Assembly: GCA_007694005.1 (NCBI GenBank)
Contig: RECN01000157.1
Location: 1 to 52,932 of the forward strand
Source of the DNA: Spirochaetaceae bacterium
Lineage (GTDB): Bacteria; Spirochaetota; Spirochaetia; DSM-27196; SKKC01
DNA length: 52,932 bases
Direction of reading: 5' to 3'
Position 1 is the stretch's first letter. Each line of letters starts with the position of its first letter. The notes under the pieces were generated by a model. It worked only from the letters and a program-made list of their open reading frames with translations. It made no database searches and was not told the origin of the DNA. This document shows, one piece after another, positions 28,238-52,932 of this stretch. The translations under genes were made by a program, and so were the position numbers.

Positions 28238-29140
28238 TCAGATATTGCTGTATACGTTGAGTTCGCCGATATCCCAGATGTGCACACGCCGGTCGCCACT
28301 GCCTATCATGAGATATCGCCCGTCCGCGGAAAACTCAAGCGCGTACAGGGTTCGCGCCGGGAAGGGTATTTCGGCCACGCGGTTCATATCATCGGTGTCA
28401 AAAAGCAGTACGCTGCGATGGCCACCGACGGCCAGGAGCGAGCCATCGGGTGAATACGTCAAAGGATGCGTTGCGCTTCGTGGTAAAGACCGCTCGTACA
28501 GTACGGTCCAGTCCTCGACCGCACTGACGATGAGCCGTGAGTCAAAGCCTATGGTTACCAGAAACTCACCATCCCTGGAAAATGTCGGGGAGTACGCGGC
28601 GACTCTGTGATGCGGCAGCACTCTGAACGGCTCGAGGGACGGCACCGAAAGCAGTACGAGTTCACCGCCGTAGCCGGTCGTCACCACGTAGTCTCCCGTC
28701 GGAGAAAACGCAAGGCTGACAACAGAACGCTGCTCACCCCGCGCGCGAGCCAGTTCCCAACCGGTTTCCATGCTCCATAGAATGAGACGACTGTCGTGCC
28801 CGGTAGTAGCCAGAAGATAGCCATCCGGCGAAACCGCAAGATCGGACAAGGGTTTACGGTGTCCATCAAGCACAAACAGAGGCGCCATTTCCGGGAAGGT
28901 CCAGATAATGGCGGTTTTGTCGGCGCTGCCTGTGACGAGGCGGGTTCCTGTCTCGTTGAACGCCATACCAGTGATTCTGCGTTTATGCGCAGCAAACACC
29001 CCGCAGGGAAGCCATTGTCCGACGGTAAAGAGGTATATCTTAGCGTCCTTACCGCCCGCTGCGATGTATTCGTTATCGGGACTGGCGGCACAGGCATAGA
29101 ACGGGTTTTTTGGCAGTGAAAGTATTCCGCTCTCTCTCAT
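28238..29140 (-). CDS. Seven-bladed WD40-repeat protein
   Basis: It is a 300-aa protein built entirely of seven WD40-type repeats of about 40 residues, each with a hydrophobic-x-FSPDG-x-LL(A/V)T-x-G pattern. Only some end in the WD-like pair (the last reads VHIWDIG). It should fold as one closed beta-propeller used as a protein-binding platform. It has no signal peptide, so it is cytoplasmic. ATG 29140 is chosen because GAGAGGTGG lies about 10 nt upstream; a TTG farther upstream lacks one. It heads the operon with the metallophosphoesterase, which may be its partner. Confidence 0.87.
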   Translation of the reverse strand: MRESGILSLPKNPFYACAASPDNEYIAAGGKDAKIYLFTVGQWLPCGVFAAHKRRITGMAFNETGTRLVTGSADKTAIIWTFPEMAPLFVLDGHRKPLSDLAVSPDGYLLATTGHDSRLILWSMETGWELARARGEQRSVVSLAFSPTGDYVVTTGYGGELVLLSVPSLEPFRVLPHHRVAAYSPTFSRDGEFLVTIGFDSRLIVSAVEDWTVLYERSLPRSATHPLTYSPDGSLLAVGGHRSVLLFDTDDMNRVAEIPFPARTLYALEFSADGRYLMIGSGDRRVHIWDIGELNVYSNI

Positions 29141-29256
29141 ATCAAGGCCACCTCTCTCAAGGATACGCGCAGCGTCGAGGGAAGGCAAGTAATTCGCATG
29201 ACATCCGTGTTATCATCTGAAGAAGCGAAGCGACCGATACTGGAATTGGAGCAGTT

Positions 29257-48149: not shown

Positions 48150-49001
48150 TTATACGTCCCGATCGGTGATCCGTCGAAGGGGTACGAGCGCGCTCTGCAA
48201 AGCCGGAAAATCCTCGGGCCGGCAGATTATTGCGCGGTCGCGCAGACAGTCGTTTTCCGGATGATAGTCAGCGGTATCGTAGGCCCTGATCGTTGTCCCG
48301 TCGTTGAGACGGTGCATGTACAGTCCGAAGTGCTCGAGGATGGGCCACGCCCCGGCAATGTCCCAGATATGCGCTCCGAAGATTGAACCTGCCCCGTGTC
48401 CGAGAGCTGCCCACGCCGACTCGACGACTGAAGAGCCAATCATCATGATGCGGCAGACCGAGGTTGCCCAGGTATGACGGCTCAGGATTCCGTCGCTCGT
48501 GAAGACCAGCGACTGGACATTGAGTGTGGTTTCGGGTCGGACAACAGCCTCAGACGCGTGCTCAGCATCGTCGAGAGAGTGCTTCCATACCGTCTCCCCG
48601 TCACAGGTAATCATGTACCCGAAGCCGGGAAAGGCCAGACCTCCGAGCCACGGCCTCCGGTTCTTCAGTACACCGACCGATACGGCGTAGAGCGGAAGCC
48701 CGTGAACGTAGTTTCTCGTCCCGTCTATCGGATCAACGACGACGAGAATCTCGTCCTCTTTCGCTTCCCGGCCGCCTCGTATTTCGGGTAGAACGCCCGG
48801 ATGCTCTTCGGTAATGACCGCGTCTGATCCCACAATGGGGGAAAAGAGTTCGATTGCCTGTTGTGAGAGCGCGAGATCAACTTCAGTTACGTAAGAGAAA
48901 TCGGCTTTCAGCTCGGCAACGGCCAGGGTCTGGCGTTCGCCTGCTTCCCGCCCGGCAGACCGCAGATATGTGAGTATTGCCTGATTCAGTTCAGTTTTCA
49001 T
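48150..49001 (-). CDS. Inositol monophosphatase superfamily protein
   Basis: It is a 283-aa Mg-dependent phosphatase of the IMPase/CysQ/FBPase-IV superfamily. Metal ligands are visible: Asp42 (VTEVD), Glu65/66 (ITEEH), Asp90 and Asp93 in DPIDGTRNYVHG, and a C-terminal WDIAGA. Candidate substrates are myo-inositol phosphates, 3'-phosphoadenosine phosphate or fructose-1,6-bisphosphate; sequence alone does not decide. It is the first gene of a two-gene unit with the aldo/keto reductase, 57 bp after the GH130 gene. Confidence 0.88.
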   Translation of the reverse strand: MKTELNQAILTYLRSAGREAGERQTLAVAELKADFSYVTEVDLALSQQAIELFSPIVGSDAVITEEHPGVLPEIRGGREAKEDEILVVVDPIDGTRNYVHGLPLYAVSVGVLKNRRPWLGGLAFPGFGYMITCDGETVWKHSLDDAEHASEAVVRPETTLNVQSLVFTSDGILSRHTWATSVCRIMMIGSSVVESAWAALGHGAGSIFGAHIWDIAGAWPILEHFGLYMHRLNDGTTIRAYDTADYHPENDCLRDRAIICRPEDFPALQSALVPLRRITDRDV

Positions 49002-49058: not shown

Positions 49059-50072
49059 CTATGTGTGATTGCTCCTCACGTAGTCCAGAATCTCATCCGT
49101 AGAGGCGTACGCAAGTGCCGTGAAGGTGTCGGATGCTCCGTAGTAGATGGCGAGCCGACCCGTCGCACCGTCGGTGAGAACCGACGTCGGGAACACGACG
49201 TTGTCCACACTGCCGGTTGTCTCGTACGATGCCTCAGGCGTCATGATAGGGAAACGACATCGATAGATGACTTTCGAAGGATCGTCGAGATCAAGGAGCG
49301 CCGCGCCAATGCTGTAGATAAAGCCGGAACAGGTATCCGCGACCCCGTGGTAGAAAAGCAACCAGCCTTCAGTTGTTTCGATGGGAGTTGGTCCGGGACC
49401 TATCTTCACGCGTTCCCACTTTTTTGGTCCGCGCGTAAAAACGATCCGATGCTTACCCCAGTAGGTCAGGTCTTTACTCTCACTGCACAGGATATCCCCG
49501 TAGTCAACGGCCATCCCCAGACCCATCGGTCTGCTCAACATCACGTACCTGTCGCCGATCATTCGAGGGATGAGCACTCCGTTCCGATTGTACGGGAGGA
49601 ACGGATTCTCCAGTTGATGAAACGACTTGAAGTCTTTCGTCCATGCAACCCCTATCGTGGGACCGTTAAAGTTGTAACACCAGGTGACGTAGTACTTATC
49701 ATCTATCTTGCAGATTCTCGGATCATAGGCGAAGTTCACCTCATCCAGAGCCGGATCGGGGCTTATGAAGCTGATCGGCTCCTCATCGAACGACCAGTCG
49801 ATCCCGTCCGGGCTGGTACCAAGGTGAAGGTACGGTGTCATACAGTGCCAGTCGGCCCGGAATATGCCGATGTAGCCGTCCTTCCACGGCACAACACAGC
49901 TGTTGTACACGCCCCTCGCCTTAGGAAAGGGGTTGATATCGACGATCGGATTGGTGCTGTGCCGCCACACGAGCCCACGGAAGCCCGCTGGTTTCTCTTC
50001 CCAGGGGATGTTCGGAAGCGGCTCGCTGACGAGTGCTGTTGTACCTCCGGGCGTACCTGTGTTCATGCTCAT
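49059..50072 (-). CDS. GH130-family beta-mannoside phosphorylase-like protein
   Basis: It is a 337-aa five-bladed propeller enzyme of family GH130, whose members phosphorolyse beta-1,4- or beta-1,2-linked mannosides to release alpha-mannose-1-phosphate. Recognisable family features are RHSTNPIVDI near residue 37, Asp117 in YDPRI (candidate general acid), and the C-terminal GSVDNVVFPT and IYYGASDT segments. It has no signal peptide, so it acts in the cytoplasm on imported oligosaccharides. Its ATG overlaps the stop of the TIM-barrel gene (ATGA). The subfamily and linkage cannot be fixed by eye. Confidence 0.88.
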   Translation of the reverse strand: MSMNTGTPGGTTALVSEPLPNIPWEEKPAGFRGLVWRHSTNPIVDINPFPKARGVYNSCVVPWKDGYIGIFRADWHCMTPYLHLGTSPDGIDWSFDEEPISFISPDPALDEVNFAYDPRICKIDDKYYVTWCYNFNGPTIGVAWTKDFKSFHQLENPFLPYNRNGVLIPRMIGDRYVMLSRPMGLGMAVDYGDILCSESKDLTYWGKHRIVFTRGPKKWERVKIGPGPTPIETTEGWLLFYHGVADTCSGFIYSIGAALLDLDDPSKVIYRCRFPIMTPEASYETTGSVDNVVFPTSVLTDGATGRLAIYYGASDTFTALAYASTDEILDYVRSNHT

Positions 50073-50914
50073 GAGTGATTCCTCGGCCCAAGTTCAGCCT
50101 CAAACTGTCGCAGCGTCGCGATTTCCCGCGGCAGGTGAATCTCGTAGGGTTCCCACTTAATCCATTCACCGCTGAGATAGCCGGCGTAATCGATCCCGTG
50201 AAGCAACTCGAGAGCACGTTTGTGATCGATTCCACCAGTTCCAATCGGCATCATGTCATCAATATCTCCGGTTCCGATCGCATCGAAGGTTGCCTGTTCG
50301 GGGCCCCGTCCATCGTGTACGTGTACGTGTCGGATCCACGGCTTTAGTAGCTCAAACGCTTCATCCATGGTGTAGCGACACACACGAACCGGGTGCATGA
50401 TGTCCCAGTTGGTAGCCACTGCCGGGTGATCGACCTGGCGGAGAACAGCAGCGACATGCTTCGGATCGCACCAGTCGTCGTGCGTCTCTATGCACAGCGT
50501 AACGCCGCGCTCGTGCGCGTGATCGGCGACTGATGCAAGAAGACCCGCCATGCTATCGATTGCGGCTTCACGGTCAAGGCCATCAGGAATCTTGCCACCG
50601 AACACGCGCAGCGTCGGCACGCCAAGATCGCCGGCAAGATCAATGCGCTCGTGAGACTCACGGACCACAGTGTCCGCCACTGAAGGATCTGCGTAACGAA
50701 GCGAGGTCGCAAGACAGCACAACTCAATCGAGCCGGCTTCCGCCTGATCGGCGATTGCACGGCGGGCATCCGCGTCTGCGGTTACTTCGATCCCGTGCGC
50801 GTGGTCGGCGTCCATTCGGGGTTCAAGGCCGTCATATCCGAATCGCTGCGCAAGACTGATCATTTCGCTGAGCGTACTGTCAGGTGTGGAAAAACTCATA
50901 AATGCATACTTCAT
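50069..50914 (-). CDS. Sugar isomerase/epimerase, xylose-isomerase-like TIM barrel
   Basis: It is a 281-aa AP_endonuc_2-type TIM barrel. The metal-site residues expected for this fold are visible: Glu143 (IETHDDW), Asp171 (NWDIMHP), His198/200 (HVHVHDG) and Glu250 (GEWIKWEP). A loop near residues 213-232 contains an 11-residue tandem duplication (IGTGDID then IGTGGID). The substrate is probably a free or keto sugar derived from the glycoside handled by its neighbours. It lies 34 bp after the fused dehydrogenase gene and overlaps GH130 by 4 bp. Confidence 0.87.
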   Translation of the reverse strand: MKYAFMSFSTPDSTLSEMISLAQRFGYDGLEPRMDADHAHGIEVTADADARRAIADQAEAGSIELCCLATSLRYADPSVADTVVRESHERIDLAGDLGVPTLRVFGGKIPDGLDREAAIDSMAGLLASVADHAHERGVTLCIETHDDWCDPKHVAAVLRQVDHPAVATNWDIMHPVRVCRYTMDEAFELLKPWIRHVHVHDGRGPEQATFDAIGTGDIDDMMPIGTGGIDHKRALELLHGIDYAGYLSGEWIKWEPYEIHLPREIATLRQFEAELGPRNHS

Positions 50915-50948: not shown

Positions 50949-52790
50949 CTATCGTTCAATTTCTACCCACGCGCCGTCTTTCTTCGCGGACTCGTACATT
51001 CGGTCAAGAACAAGTCGGCTGCGTCGGCCGTCACGTCCCGTGCACATCAGATCCACACCGGTACGGACAGCAGCGGCAAGGTTCTGGGCCGAGTTGGTCC
51101 AGCGGGGCATTTCCGGCTCCGGCGAGATGTTTTCCCAAGCGTCGCCGACGTGCCAGCGTTCGACCTCCGTAGCGAAGGGGCCGCCGAAGCTGTACGTACA
51201 CGCGCCTCGGGTCCCGTGCAGCTCCAGATTGCTGTACCAGGTATCGACCGGATAGGACGTGGTTGCCAGAAGTTGCAACACTGCTCCGTTCTCAAGCTCC
51301 CAGGTAGCGGACCCAAGATCCTCGGCCTCTATTTCATGCGTCTGGGTCCACGTACGCATGGACACGCGTCTTGGCATGCCAAGGCAATACACCAGCTGGT
51401 CAATGTTGTGGATGGTCTGATTGCTCATGACCCCTCCACCGTCAAGACGATGCGTGCCGCGCCATCCACCGTTGGCCCGGTAGTAATCCATGTCTCTGAG
51501 AATCCGCACCAGTAATGTCCCGCCAACCAGCTCACCGAGATCGCCCGCGGCTATGCGCTGCCTGATGCGCTGTGTTGGAATCGCCAGCCGCTGCTCGAAG
51601 TCCACGGCGAGCAGTTTGCCGGCTTTATCGGCTGCCTCGATCATACGGTCGCAGCCGGCCAGATTGGCTTCCATTGGCTTCGTAGTGAGCACGTGTTTCC
51701 CCGCGTTCAGGGCCGCAACACCGATGTCTGCGTGTATACCGGTCGGCGTCATCACGAAGACTGCTTCGCAGTCATCGCGTTCAAGCCAGGGATCAAGCTC
51801 GGCGGTCCATTCACAACCGAGCTCGGCGCCTGCTTTCTCTGCCCTCTCGGATACAATATCGACGACACCAATGACTTCCGTTCCTGGCTCAGCCGCCAGC
51901 TGTCGTGCACGTACGAGCCCCATACCCAGCCCTACAACGACAAACTTGAGAGGCTCAAAATCAAGCTGTGCCCGACGCTTTACAGCCGGCGAGCCGCCGG
52001 GCCAAACCCGGCGAATCCGGTCGACAACCTCTTTTGACACGTCGAGACTATTCAGTGACGAGTCCGGGTTGTGCGTCTCTACGGAGACGGGACCATTGAA
52101 GCCGTTGGTCGTAGCCATCATGAGAATCTTGTCCCACGGTACAGTCACGTCTGCCAGTCCGGGCACGATGCCCTCCGACTTTACGTGGATGTTCCGGCTG
52201 CGACGTATGCGCAGAGCTATACCTTCGTCATCGGGAGGATTGTCGTCGAGCCACTCGTTTGCACAGTCCCATGCAAGACCCCACTCAGGAACGGCGAGCG
52301 CATCGAGGACAGTAAGACACTCAGGTACCGTCACGTCGCAGTTCTCAAACACCAGGGTCAAACCGGCCTCCTTCGCACGCTCGGCGAGCGGGCCAAAGCG
52401 GTCGAGCACCTTCTGGAGTTCATCTGGACGCATGACAAGCGCCCCCTGCTGGTCCTTTTCCGGCTGCCAGTAGAAGAACGAGCGAACGAGCCGGCAGTTG
52501 AACGTATCGGCCGCCCGAATGATGCCTTCGAGTTTCGTTTTCTCGGCTTCGAGTCGCTCCGACTCAGGCAGATGGGCCTTGGCCAACGACGATTGCAGAC
52601 AGGCGACCTGCAGATTGCCGTCGCTGAGCAGTCTGGCGACGTCGTTCATCTCCTCGGCGTCGAGCATACAGAACTCCCTGCCCATGACCCGTCCGCGCAG
52701 GTCGATCCATTCGAGACCCCAGTCCTGGAAATGGCTGATGGCCCTGGTGATGTCAAGACCGATTTCGTCGTTGAATATCGATAAGCGCAT
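50949..52790 (-). CDS. Fusion of TIM-barrel sugar isomerase/epimerase with Gfo/Idh/MocA dehydrogenase
   Basis: It is a single 613-aa frame with two complete domains. Residues 1 to about 265 form a xylose-isomerase-like TIM barrel with metal candidates Glu149, Asp175, His202 and Glu238. After a short linker, residues about 280-613 form a Gfo/Idh/MocA oxidoreductase: Rossmann loop VVVGLGMG (284-291), TTKPMEANL with Lys371 (the EKP-motif lysine), and GGGVMSNQTIHNIDQ with His461 and Asp464. The ATG has GGAGGAA 7 nt before it; frame upstream of that is spurious. It should oxidise a sugar with NAD(P) and isomerise or eliminate at a metal site. It is the first gene of the GH130 operon. Confidence 0.9.
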   Translation of the reverse strand: MRLSIFNDEIGLDITRAISHFQDWGLEWIDLRGRVMGREFCMLDAEEMNDVARLLSDGNLQVACLQSSLAKAHLPESERLEAEKTKLEGIIRAADTFNCRLVRSFFYWQPEKDQQGALVMRPDELQKVLDRFGPLAERAKEAGLTLVFENCDVTVPECLTVLDALAVPEWGLAWDCANEWLDDNPPDDEGIALRIRRSRNIHVKSEGIVPGLADVTVPWDKILMMATTNGFNGPVSVETHNPDSSLNSLDVSKEVVDRIRRVWPGGSPAVKRRAQLDFEPLKFVVVGLGMGLVRARQLAAEPGTEVIGVVDIVSERAEKAGAELGCEWTAELDPWLERDDCEAVFVMTPTGIHADIGVAALNAGKHVLTTKPMEANLAGCDRMIEAADKAGKLLAVDFEQRLAIPTQRIRQRIAAGDLGELVGGTLLVRILRDMDYYRANGGWRGTHRLDGGGVMSNQTIHNIDQLVYCLGMPRRVSMRTWTQTHEIEAEDLGSATWELENGAVLQLLATTSYPVDTWYSNLELHGTRGACTYSFGGPFATEVERWHVGDAWENISPEPEMPRWTNSAQNLAAAVRTGVDLMCTGRDGRRSRLVLDRMYESAKKDGAWVEIER

Positions 52791-52932
52791 TCGTTCCTCC
52801 GTATTATCAGCGAACTCTACCACGCGCTCTGGAGATGGCTCTTGTTTTGATATGACGAGATCTTTACGCTGCGTTGATAAAAATATTACTGTCCGCGACC
52901 GTGGTGATTTTCTCTTCATTTCCGACAATCAA

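Follow-up and report, generated by a model that had tools for sequence, protein, structure and literature searches.

The window (the whole stretch of DNA that was analysed, 52,932 nucleotides) is an entire contig, which ends 142 bases upstream of a gene encoding a TIM barrel joined to a Gfo/Idh/MocA dehydrogenase. This fusion gene is the first of an operon on the minus strand, in which it is followed by genes for a second TIM barrel (TIM2), a GH130 enzyme, a phosphatase of the inositol-monophosphatase (IMPase) family and an aldo/keto reductase (AKR), as listed below.

52795-52800, minus strand: Shine-Dalgarno-like GGAGGA, with GGAGG five bases 5' of the fusion ATG
50949-52790, minus strand: TIM barrel-Gfo/Idh/MocA fusion gene, 613 aa, one open frame
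52005-52790, minus strand: TIM-barrel domain (PF01261), residues 1-262
51951-52004, minus strand: interdomain linker of ~18 residues, residues 263-280, 65-82% identity
50952-51950, minus strand: Gfo/Idh/MocA dehydrogenase domain, residues 281-613
50069-50914, minus strand: TIM2, 281 aa, with E143-T-H145, 34 bases past the fusion
49059-50072, minus strand: GH130 mannoside phosphorylase-like protein, 337 aa, its start overlapping the TIM2 stop by 4 bases
48150-49001, minus strand: IMPase-family phosphatase, 283 aa
47111-48142, minus strand: AKR, 343 aa, L-glyceraldehyde-3-phosphate reductase subfamily (505 bits vs a cut-off of 448)

The fusion ORF starts with ATG and contains no internal stops. 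Residues 23-260 match AP_endonuc_2 (PF01261; 64.7 bits, Pfam cut-off 31.1), and the remainder carries both the N-terminal Rossmann and the C-terminal alpha/beta domains of the Gfo/Idh/MocA family, as matches to GFO_IDH_MocA (PF01408; residues 281-398, 83.4 bits, cut-off 24), GFO_IDH_MocA_C3 (PF22725; residues 407-530, 75.4 bits, cut-off 27) and GFO_IDH_MocA_C (PF02894; residues 410-611, 60.3 bits, cut-off 22.9). The architecture of a full TIM barrel, a linker and then a full dehydrogenase in one polypeptide is confirmed. The first-pass annotation had described two full-length domains in one uninterrupted frame, which the ORF and the Pfam matches bear out with exact coordinates, and a second TIM barrel and GH130 alongside, both of which lie in the operon of the fusion.

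Integrity and distribution of the fusion

Full-length fused homologues are found, among 84,980 species scanned, in two Spirochaetaceae MAGs: one is 94% identical (L038, SKXQ01000127.1; also recovered as G001, which is congeneric with the window genome), and the other is 75% identical (L039, JARGFR010000016.1). The alignment of the three fused proteins has no gaps across the junction. The dN/dS values of the TIM and dehydrogenase portions are 0.056 and 0.047 against L038, and 0.145 and 0.084 against L039; both halves are under purifying selection. An assembly frameshift is rejected, because the identical frame is kept in independent MAGs and both halves are selected, which excludes sequencing or assembly error for practical purposes and upholds the earlier view of a genuine fusion rather than an artefact. 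Two genes expressed via an internal start are likewise rejected: from residue 225 to residue 290, ATG, GTG or TTG occurs solely at M225, V251 and M290, none of which is a sensible start for a separate dehydrogenase, and V251 is without a Shine-Dalgarno sequence.

The fusion is rare in the genomes searched. Among 296 Spirochaetota genomes, the TIM domain is fused in the genome of the window only, and G001 is the sole other full-length fusion among 100 nearer relatives. No further fusions are found in ~350 Spirochaetota genomes or among the inspected best matches from 72,556 plasmids, in searches that reach moderate divergence only and leave out Clostridia genomes, and viral contigs scanned with the dehydrogenase alignment contain no relatives. 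An apparent fusion in Paenibacillus cellulosilyticus, seen as one tblastn piece across the query, consists of two same-frame genes with one stop between them, and in G024, G016, G047 and G061 the long open frames near Gfo matches do not join a Gfo protein to this TIM.

The unfused pair, by comparison, is common. With the TIM domain as the only query, a Gfo/Idh/MocA gene adjoins five of the six nearest unfused TIM relatives in Spirochaetota, and 17 plasmid records are recovered, of which 14 loci were inspected. In 13 of these a Gfo gene lies no more than two genes from the TIM gene (as the immediate neighbour in nine), in haloarchaea, Bacillota, Actinomycetota, Pseudomonadota and Fusobacteriota. 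Chance adjacency would amount to a few per cent, on the basis of some 10-50 Gfo-like matches per ~3,500 genes, the gene number being an estimate. The exception is a plasmid of Haladaptatus halobius, on which the relative of the fused TIM adjoins a GH4 glycosidase gene (L105, 4971-7631); the GH4 family itself works by NAD+-dependent oxidation and elimination, as discussed in PMC7676230.

Both gene orders occur among the unfused pairs, and the order of the fusion, TIM then Gfo, is found at five loci (L046, L073, L076, L077 and L099). In trees, the fused TIM clusters with L046 and L099 and the fused dehydrogenase clusters with L010; the halves therefore point to no one obvious ancestral pair. In another spirochaete family (G237; L063, 7742-12683, contig C97), AraC and GH130 genes are divergent from a TIM2-Gfo-TIM series, and this cluster is an unfused counterpart of the window operon with an equivalent set of functions. 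Plasmid p2 of Cetobacterium somerae (L077, 4625-13155) carries AraC, TIM, Gfo, Gfo, TIM, an MFS transporter and the uidA beta-glucuronidase, which suggests a glucuronide pathway of like kind. The system had been called an unusual one for degradation, which holds for the covalent join but not for the TIM/Gfo pairing, which is ordinary; the fusion is the joined form of a known, widespread enzyme pair and not a new kind of system.

The joining may be of little mechanistic consequence, with two independent pathway enzymes and no channelling between them. This explanation, which is compatible with either of the catalytic readings discussed below, is a substantial possibility, although short of an even one. 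Conservation within the protein is lowest in the linker, and the unfused pair works in many phyla and in both gene orders; however, the fusion has persisted to a divergence of 75% identity under strong purifying selection on both halves.

Active sites of the dehydrogenase and the TIM barrels

The catalytic residues, described as plausible in the first-pass annotation, occupy the expected positions in both domains and do not vary among the three fused proteins.

52344-52346, minus strand: E149, predicted metal ligand of the fused TIM
52266-52268, minus strand: D175, predicted metal ligand of the fused TIM
52185-52187, minus strand: H202, predicted metal ligand of the fused TIM
52077-52079, minus strand: E238, predicted metal ligand of the fused TIM
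51678-51680, minus strand: K371 of the KP motif, dehydrogenase domain
51420-51422, minus strand: N457 of N457-Q-x-x-H461, dehydrogenase domain
51408-51410, minus strand: H461 of N457-Q-x-x-H461, dehydrogenase domain

In the dehydrogenase domain, K371, N457 and H461 are mostly conserved in unfused relatives, and the canonical Asp of D-x-x-x-H is N457, as is likewise the case in 3q2i and in most TIM-adjacent relatives. The best PDB match is 3q2i, which has the Y-Y...W-R-G and N-Q-x-x-H motifs in common with the fused domain; we take 3q2i and 3q2k to be the WlbA-type UDP-sugar 3-dehydrogenase, and WlbA is a biosynthetic enzyme with a nucleotide sugar as its substrate. The fused dehydrogenase alone matches WlbA at 1e-25 and the glucuronide-3-dehydrogenase 8tdi at 2.8e-15. 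Profile A4, built from the fused dehydrogenase together with those encoded beside TIM barrels and composed mostly of unfused relatives, matches 8tdi at 4e-104 and 3q2k/3q2i at ~1e-61. Because the match of the fused domain alone is weak, the substrate of 8tdi should not be transferred to it. The presence of the solved 8tdi among the relatives agrees with the earlier proposal of C3 oxidation. The dehydrogenase probably oxidises a sugar, on which, once oxidised, the TIM barrel probably acts.

In the fused TIM, E149, D175, H202 and E238 lie at the aligned predicted metal-site positions of PF01261 and are kept in nearly all relatives. The C- and O-glycoside eliminases carry E/H-x-H at beta5, of which the His is essential in AtOGE (PMC10628242). 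The fused TIM has E149-N150-C151 at beta5, with no His two residues past the predicted metal ligand, and thereby departs from the 3-keto-glycoside beta-eliminases of the CGE/OGE type; TIM2 carries E143-T-H145 at beta5, which is conserved among TIM2 relatives, and its best solved match, AsbF, has E-T-H at the equivalent place. Elimination had been assigned to the TIM partner of the dehydrogenase, and it is not indicated by sequence for the fused TIM because the eliminase His is absent. The solved profile relatives of the fused TIM are mixed, comprising Art22, AsbF, D-tagatose 3-epimerases, IolI and IolE; Art22 is the best PDB match, and the 2-hydroxy-3-keto-glucal hydratase 8ro4 is matched at 3.7e-5 only. 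Hydration, or epimerisation of the kind carried out by E. coli YcjR, is as possible for the fused TIM as elimination, and its sequence does not choose among the three.

One reading that draws on these residues is a redox-neutral glycoside epimerase, in which C3 is oxidised, the TIM barrel inverts C2 or C4 and the ketone is re-reduced, so that a glucoside or taloside becomes a mannoside for GH130; we regard it as a somewhat doubtful candidate. Both metal-site Glu residues on which epimerases of this fold rely (E149 and E238) are present in the fused TIM, without the eliminase His, ribulose-phosphate 3-epimerases and D-tagatose 3-epimerases are among the best family matches for its relatives, and the ycj cluster of E. 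coli has like parts (a CUT1 ABC transporter, glycoside phosphorylases, a TIM 4-epimerase and a Gfo 3-dehydrogenase). However, in a local comparison YcjR did not emerge as close to the TIM proteins, the operon also holds TIM2 with its lyase-like E-T-H motif, and several relatives lie beside uronide genes (GH115, GH2 glucuronidase and mannonate dehydratase), which are a better fit to cleavage.

An inositol-type enzyme, in which an IolG-like dehydrogenase is joined to an inosose isomerase or dehydratase resembling IolI or IolE and the IMPase-family gene of the operon supplies inositol, is very improbable: inositol 2-dehydrogenase is the top NCBIfam match of the dehydrogenase (TIGR04380, 95.5 bits) and the TIM profile matches IolI and IolE weakly in the PDB, but that score is far under the equivalog cut-off of 355 bits and equally weak for every Gfo protein tested, the active site carries the WlbA motif N-Q-x-x-H in place of D-x-x-x-H, and the operon context includes GH130 and a CUT1-type sugar importer, which to our knowledge lie outside known inositol pathways.

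Genomic surroundings and a proposed pathway

The closest solved relatives of the GH130 protein are the beta-1,4-mannoside phosphorylases TM1225 (1.3e-120), UhgbMP and RaMP2. It matches PF04041 at 208 bits (cut-off 26), and its catalytic D117 aligns with D104 of UhgbMP. GH130 phosphorylases have three basic phosphate-binding residues that are absent in GH130 hydrolases. From its close alignment with TM1225, UhgbMP and RaMP2, the protein of the window is predicted to be beta-mannoside phosphorylase-like.

At L038, the genes ahead of the fusion encode two ABC sugar permeases and an AraC regulator. Counterparts of the permeases and of AraC, together with a solute-binding protein, are located on another contig of the window genome (C147), with the AraC gene next to its end. 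An identical sequence of 24 bases is present at both contig ends, as well as at several other contig ends of the genome, and is absent from L038:

52887-52910, minus strand (window), and G000:C147:262-285 (L049): 24-base end repeat of a probable insertion element

Since this sequence is common to several contig ends, the AraC gene and the fusion are probably separated by an insertion element, and it may alter the expression of the operon. Further up C147, upstream of the importer (L049, 5173-10437), are genes for a ManD-like dehydratase, a lactonase and an SDR, and then a gamma-glutamyltranspeptidase. On a plasmid of the haloarchaeon Halomicrobium (L095), a mannonate dehydratase, an SDR, a lactonase and an ABC transporter surround a Gfo gene, a fused-type TIM and a TIM2 relative. 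The like kinds of genes on C147 and L095 suggest an oxidative route, which the released sugar may enter. The genes around the fusion look like a set for the import and breakdown of mannose-containing sugars.

Elsewhere in the window, positions 28238-29188 encode a 316-aa WD40 beta-propeller-repeat protein beside a weakly metallophosphatase-like gene, which looks unusual for a spirochaete.

The reading that we favour, and hold to be rather probable, is that the fusion is a bifunctional enzyme of 3-keto-glycosides, encoded in an operon for sugar uptake. The dehydrogenase domain would oxidise C3 of an imported oligosaccharide of the beta-mannoside or glucuronide type and transfer the hydride to NAD+, and the fused TIM, with a divalent metal, would then work on the C-H adjoining the ketone. 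Re-reduction of the 3-keto sugar, perhaps by the same dehydrogenase domain, would allow a redox-neutral cycle. DgpA works in this way, its bound NADH being oxidised again by 3-oxo-glucose (PMC11239390). The mannosidic bond would be phosphorolysed by GH130. As the eliminase His is present in TIM2 and absent from the fused TIM, a division of labour may be proposed, although weakly held, in which TIM2 performs the elimination and the fused TIM performs hydration or isomerisation beside the re-reducing dehydrogenase. With the two domains covalently linked, the unstable 3-keto intermediate would stay local, and channelling between the fused domains is a reasonable though tentative idea. Structure prediction with AlphaFold2 on the three-sequence alignment gave a pLDDT of 46, which is too poor to use because the sequences are too few.

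The most complete version of the bifunctional 3-keto-glycoside reading is a single-chain, redox-neutral machine that would oxidise, transform and re-reduce a mannoside or mannosyl-glucuronide with a channelled 3-keto intermediate, by a GH4-like mechanism from unrelated folds, and feed GH130; taken as a whole, it is unlikely. Glycoside breakdown by a dehydrogenase paired with a TIM barrel is a non-hydrolytic route that is now emerging, and a natural fusion fixes which dehydrogenase partners which TIM barrel, providing a single protein in which the role of each TIM barrel, and any channelling of the unstable 3-keto sugar, are measurable. Additionally, GH130 links the pair to mannose-containing substrates, for which we know of no such dehydrogenase/TIM pathway.

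Comparison with known systems

The domain combination is not claimed as unrecorded, because an architecture of AP_endonuc_2, GFO_IDH_MocA and GFO_IDH_MocA_C has been described for 500 proteins of gut polyphenol gene clusters (PMC8824206). Those proteins have three Pfam domains as in the fusion, called one architecture, whereas no GH130 context is described; the comparison is by description only, and the wording is ambiguous on single chains.

The glucuronide-3-dehydrogenase P2B11 (8tdi) resembles the fusion in being a Gfo/Idh/MocA enzyme with KP and N-Q-x-x-H motifs, the relatives of which adjoin a PF01261 TIM barrel; in contrast to the fusion, these are separate proteins, and the fused dehydrogenase is distant from P2B11. 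WlbA (3q2i/3q2k) is the closest in sequence to the fused dehydrogenase but is itself unfused. In the levoglucosan pathway of Bacillus smithii (LgdA/LgdB1/LgdB2/LgdC), Gfo-type oxidation at C3 is followed by elimination and hydration (PMC7676230). The elimination and hydration are the work of two TIM-barrel "sugar phosphate isomerases", and a sugar ABC transporter lies alongside; two TIM barrels and, across the contig break, a sugar ABC importer likewise accompany the dehydrogenase of the fusion, whereas that pathway comprises four separate proteins with two dehydrogenases and has no GH130.

Like the levoglucosan pathway, AtOGE/AtHYD (PMC10628242) and DgpA (PMC11239390) are biochemical precedents for one or two dehydrogenases acting with TIM barrels. 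The TIM metal site of the 3-keto-glycoside eliminases AtOGE/AtHYD and PuCGE consists of Glu/His, Asp, His and Glu. Their E-x-H motif at beta5 recurs in TIM2, and the fused TIM differs by the lack of the catalytic His. The E. coli YcjQRS proteins with YcjM/YcjT differ from the window operon in that they are unfused and use other phosphorylase families, with no GH130 and with YcjR not close in sequence; like the fusion operon taken with the importer genes on C147, they unite a CUT1 ABC transporter, a Gfo 3-dehydrogenase, a TIM-barrel protein (there an epimerase) and glycoside phosphorylases in one cluster.
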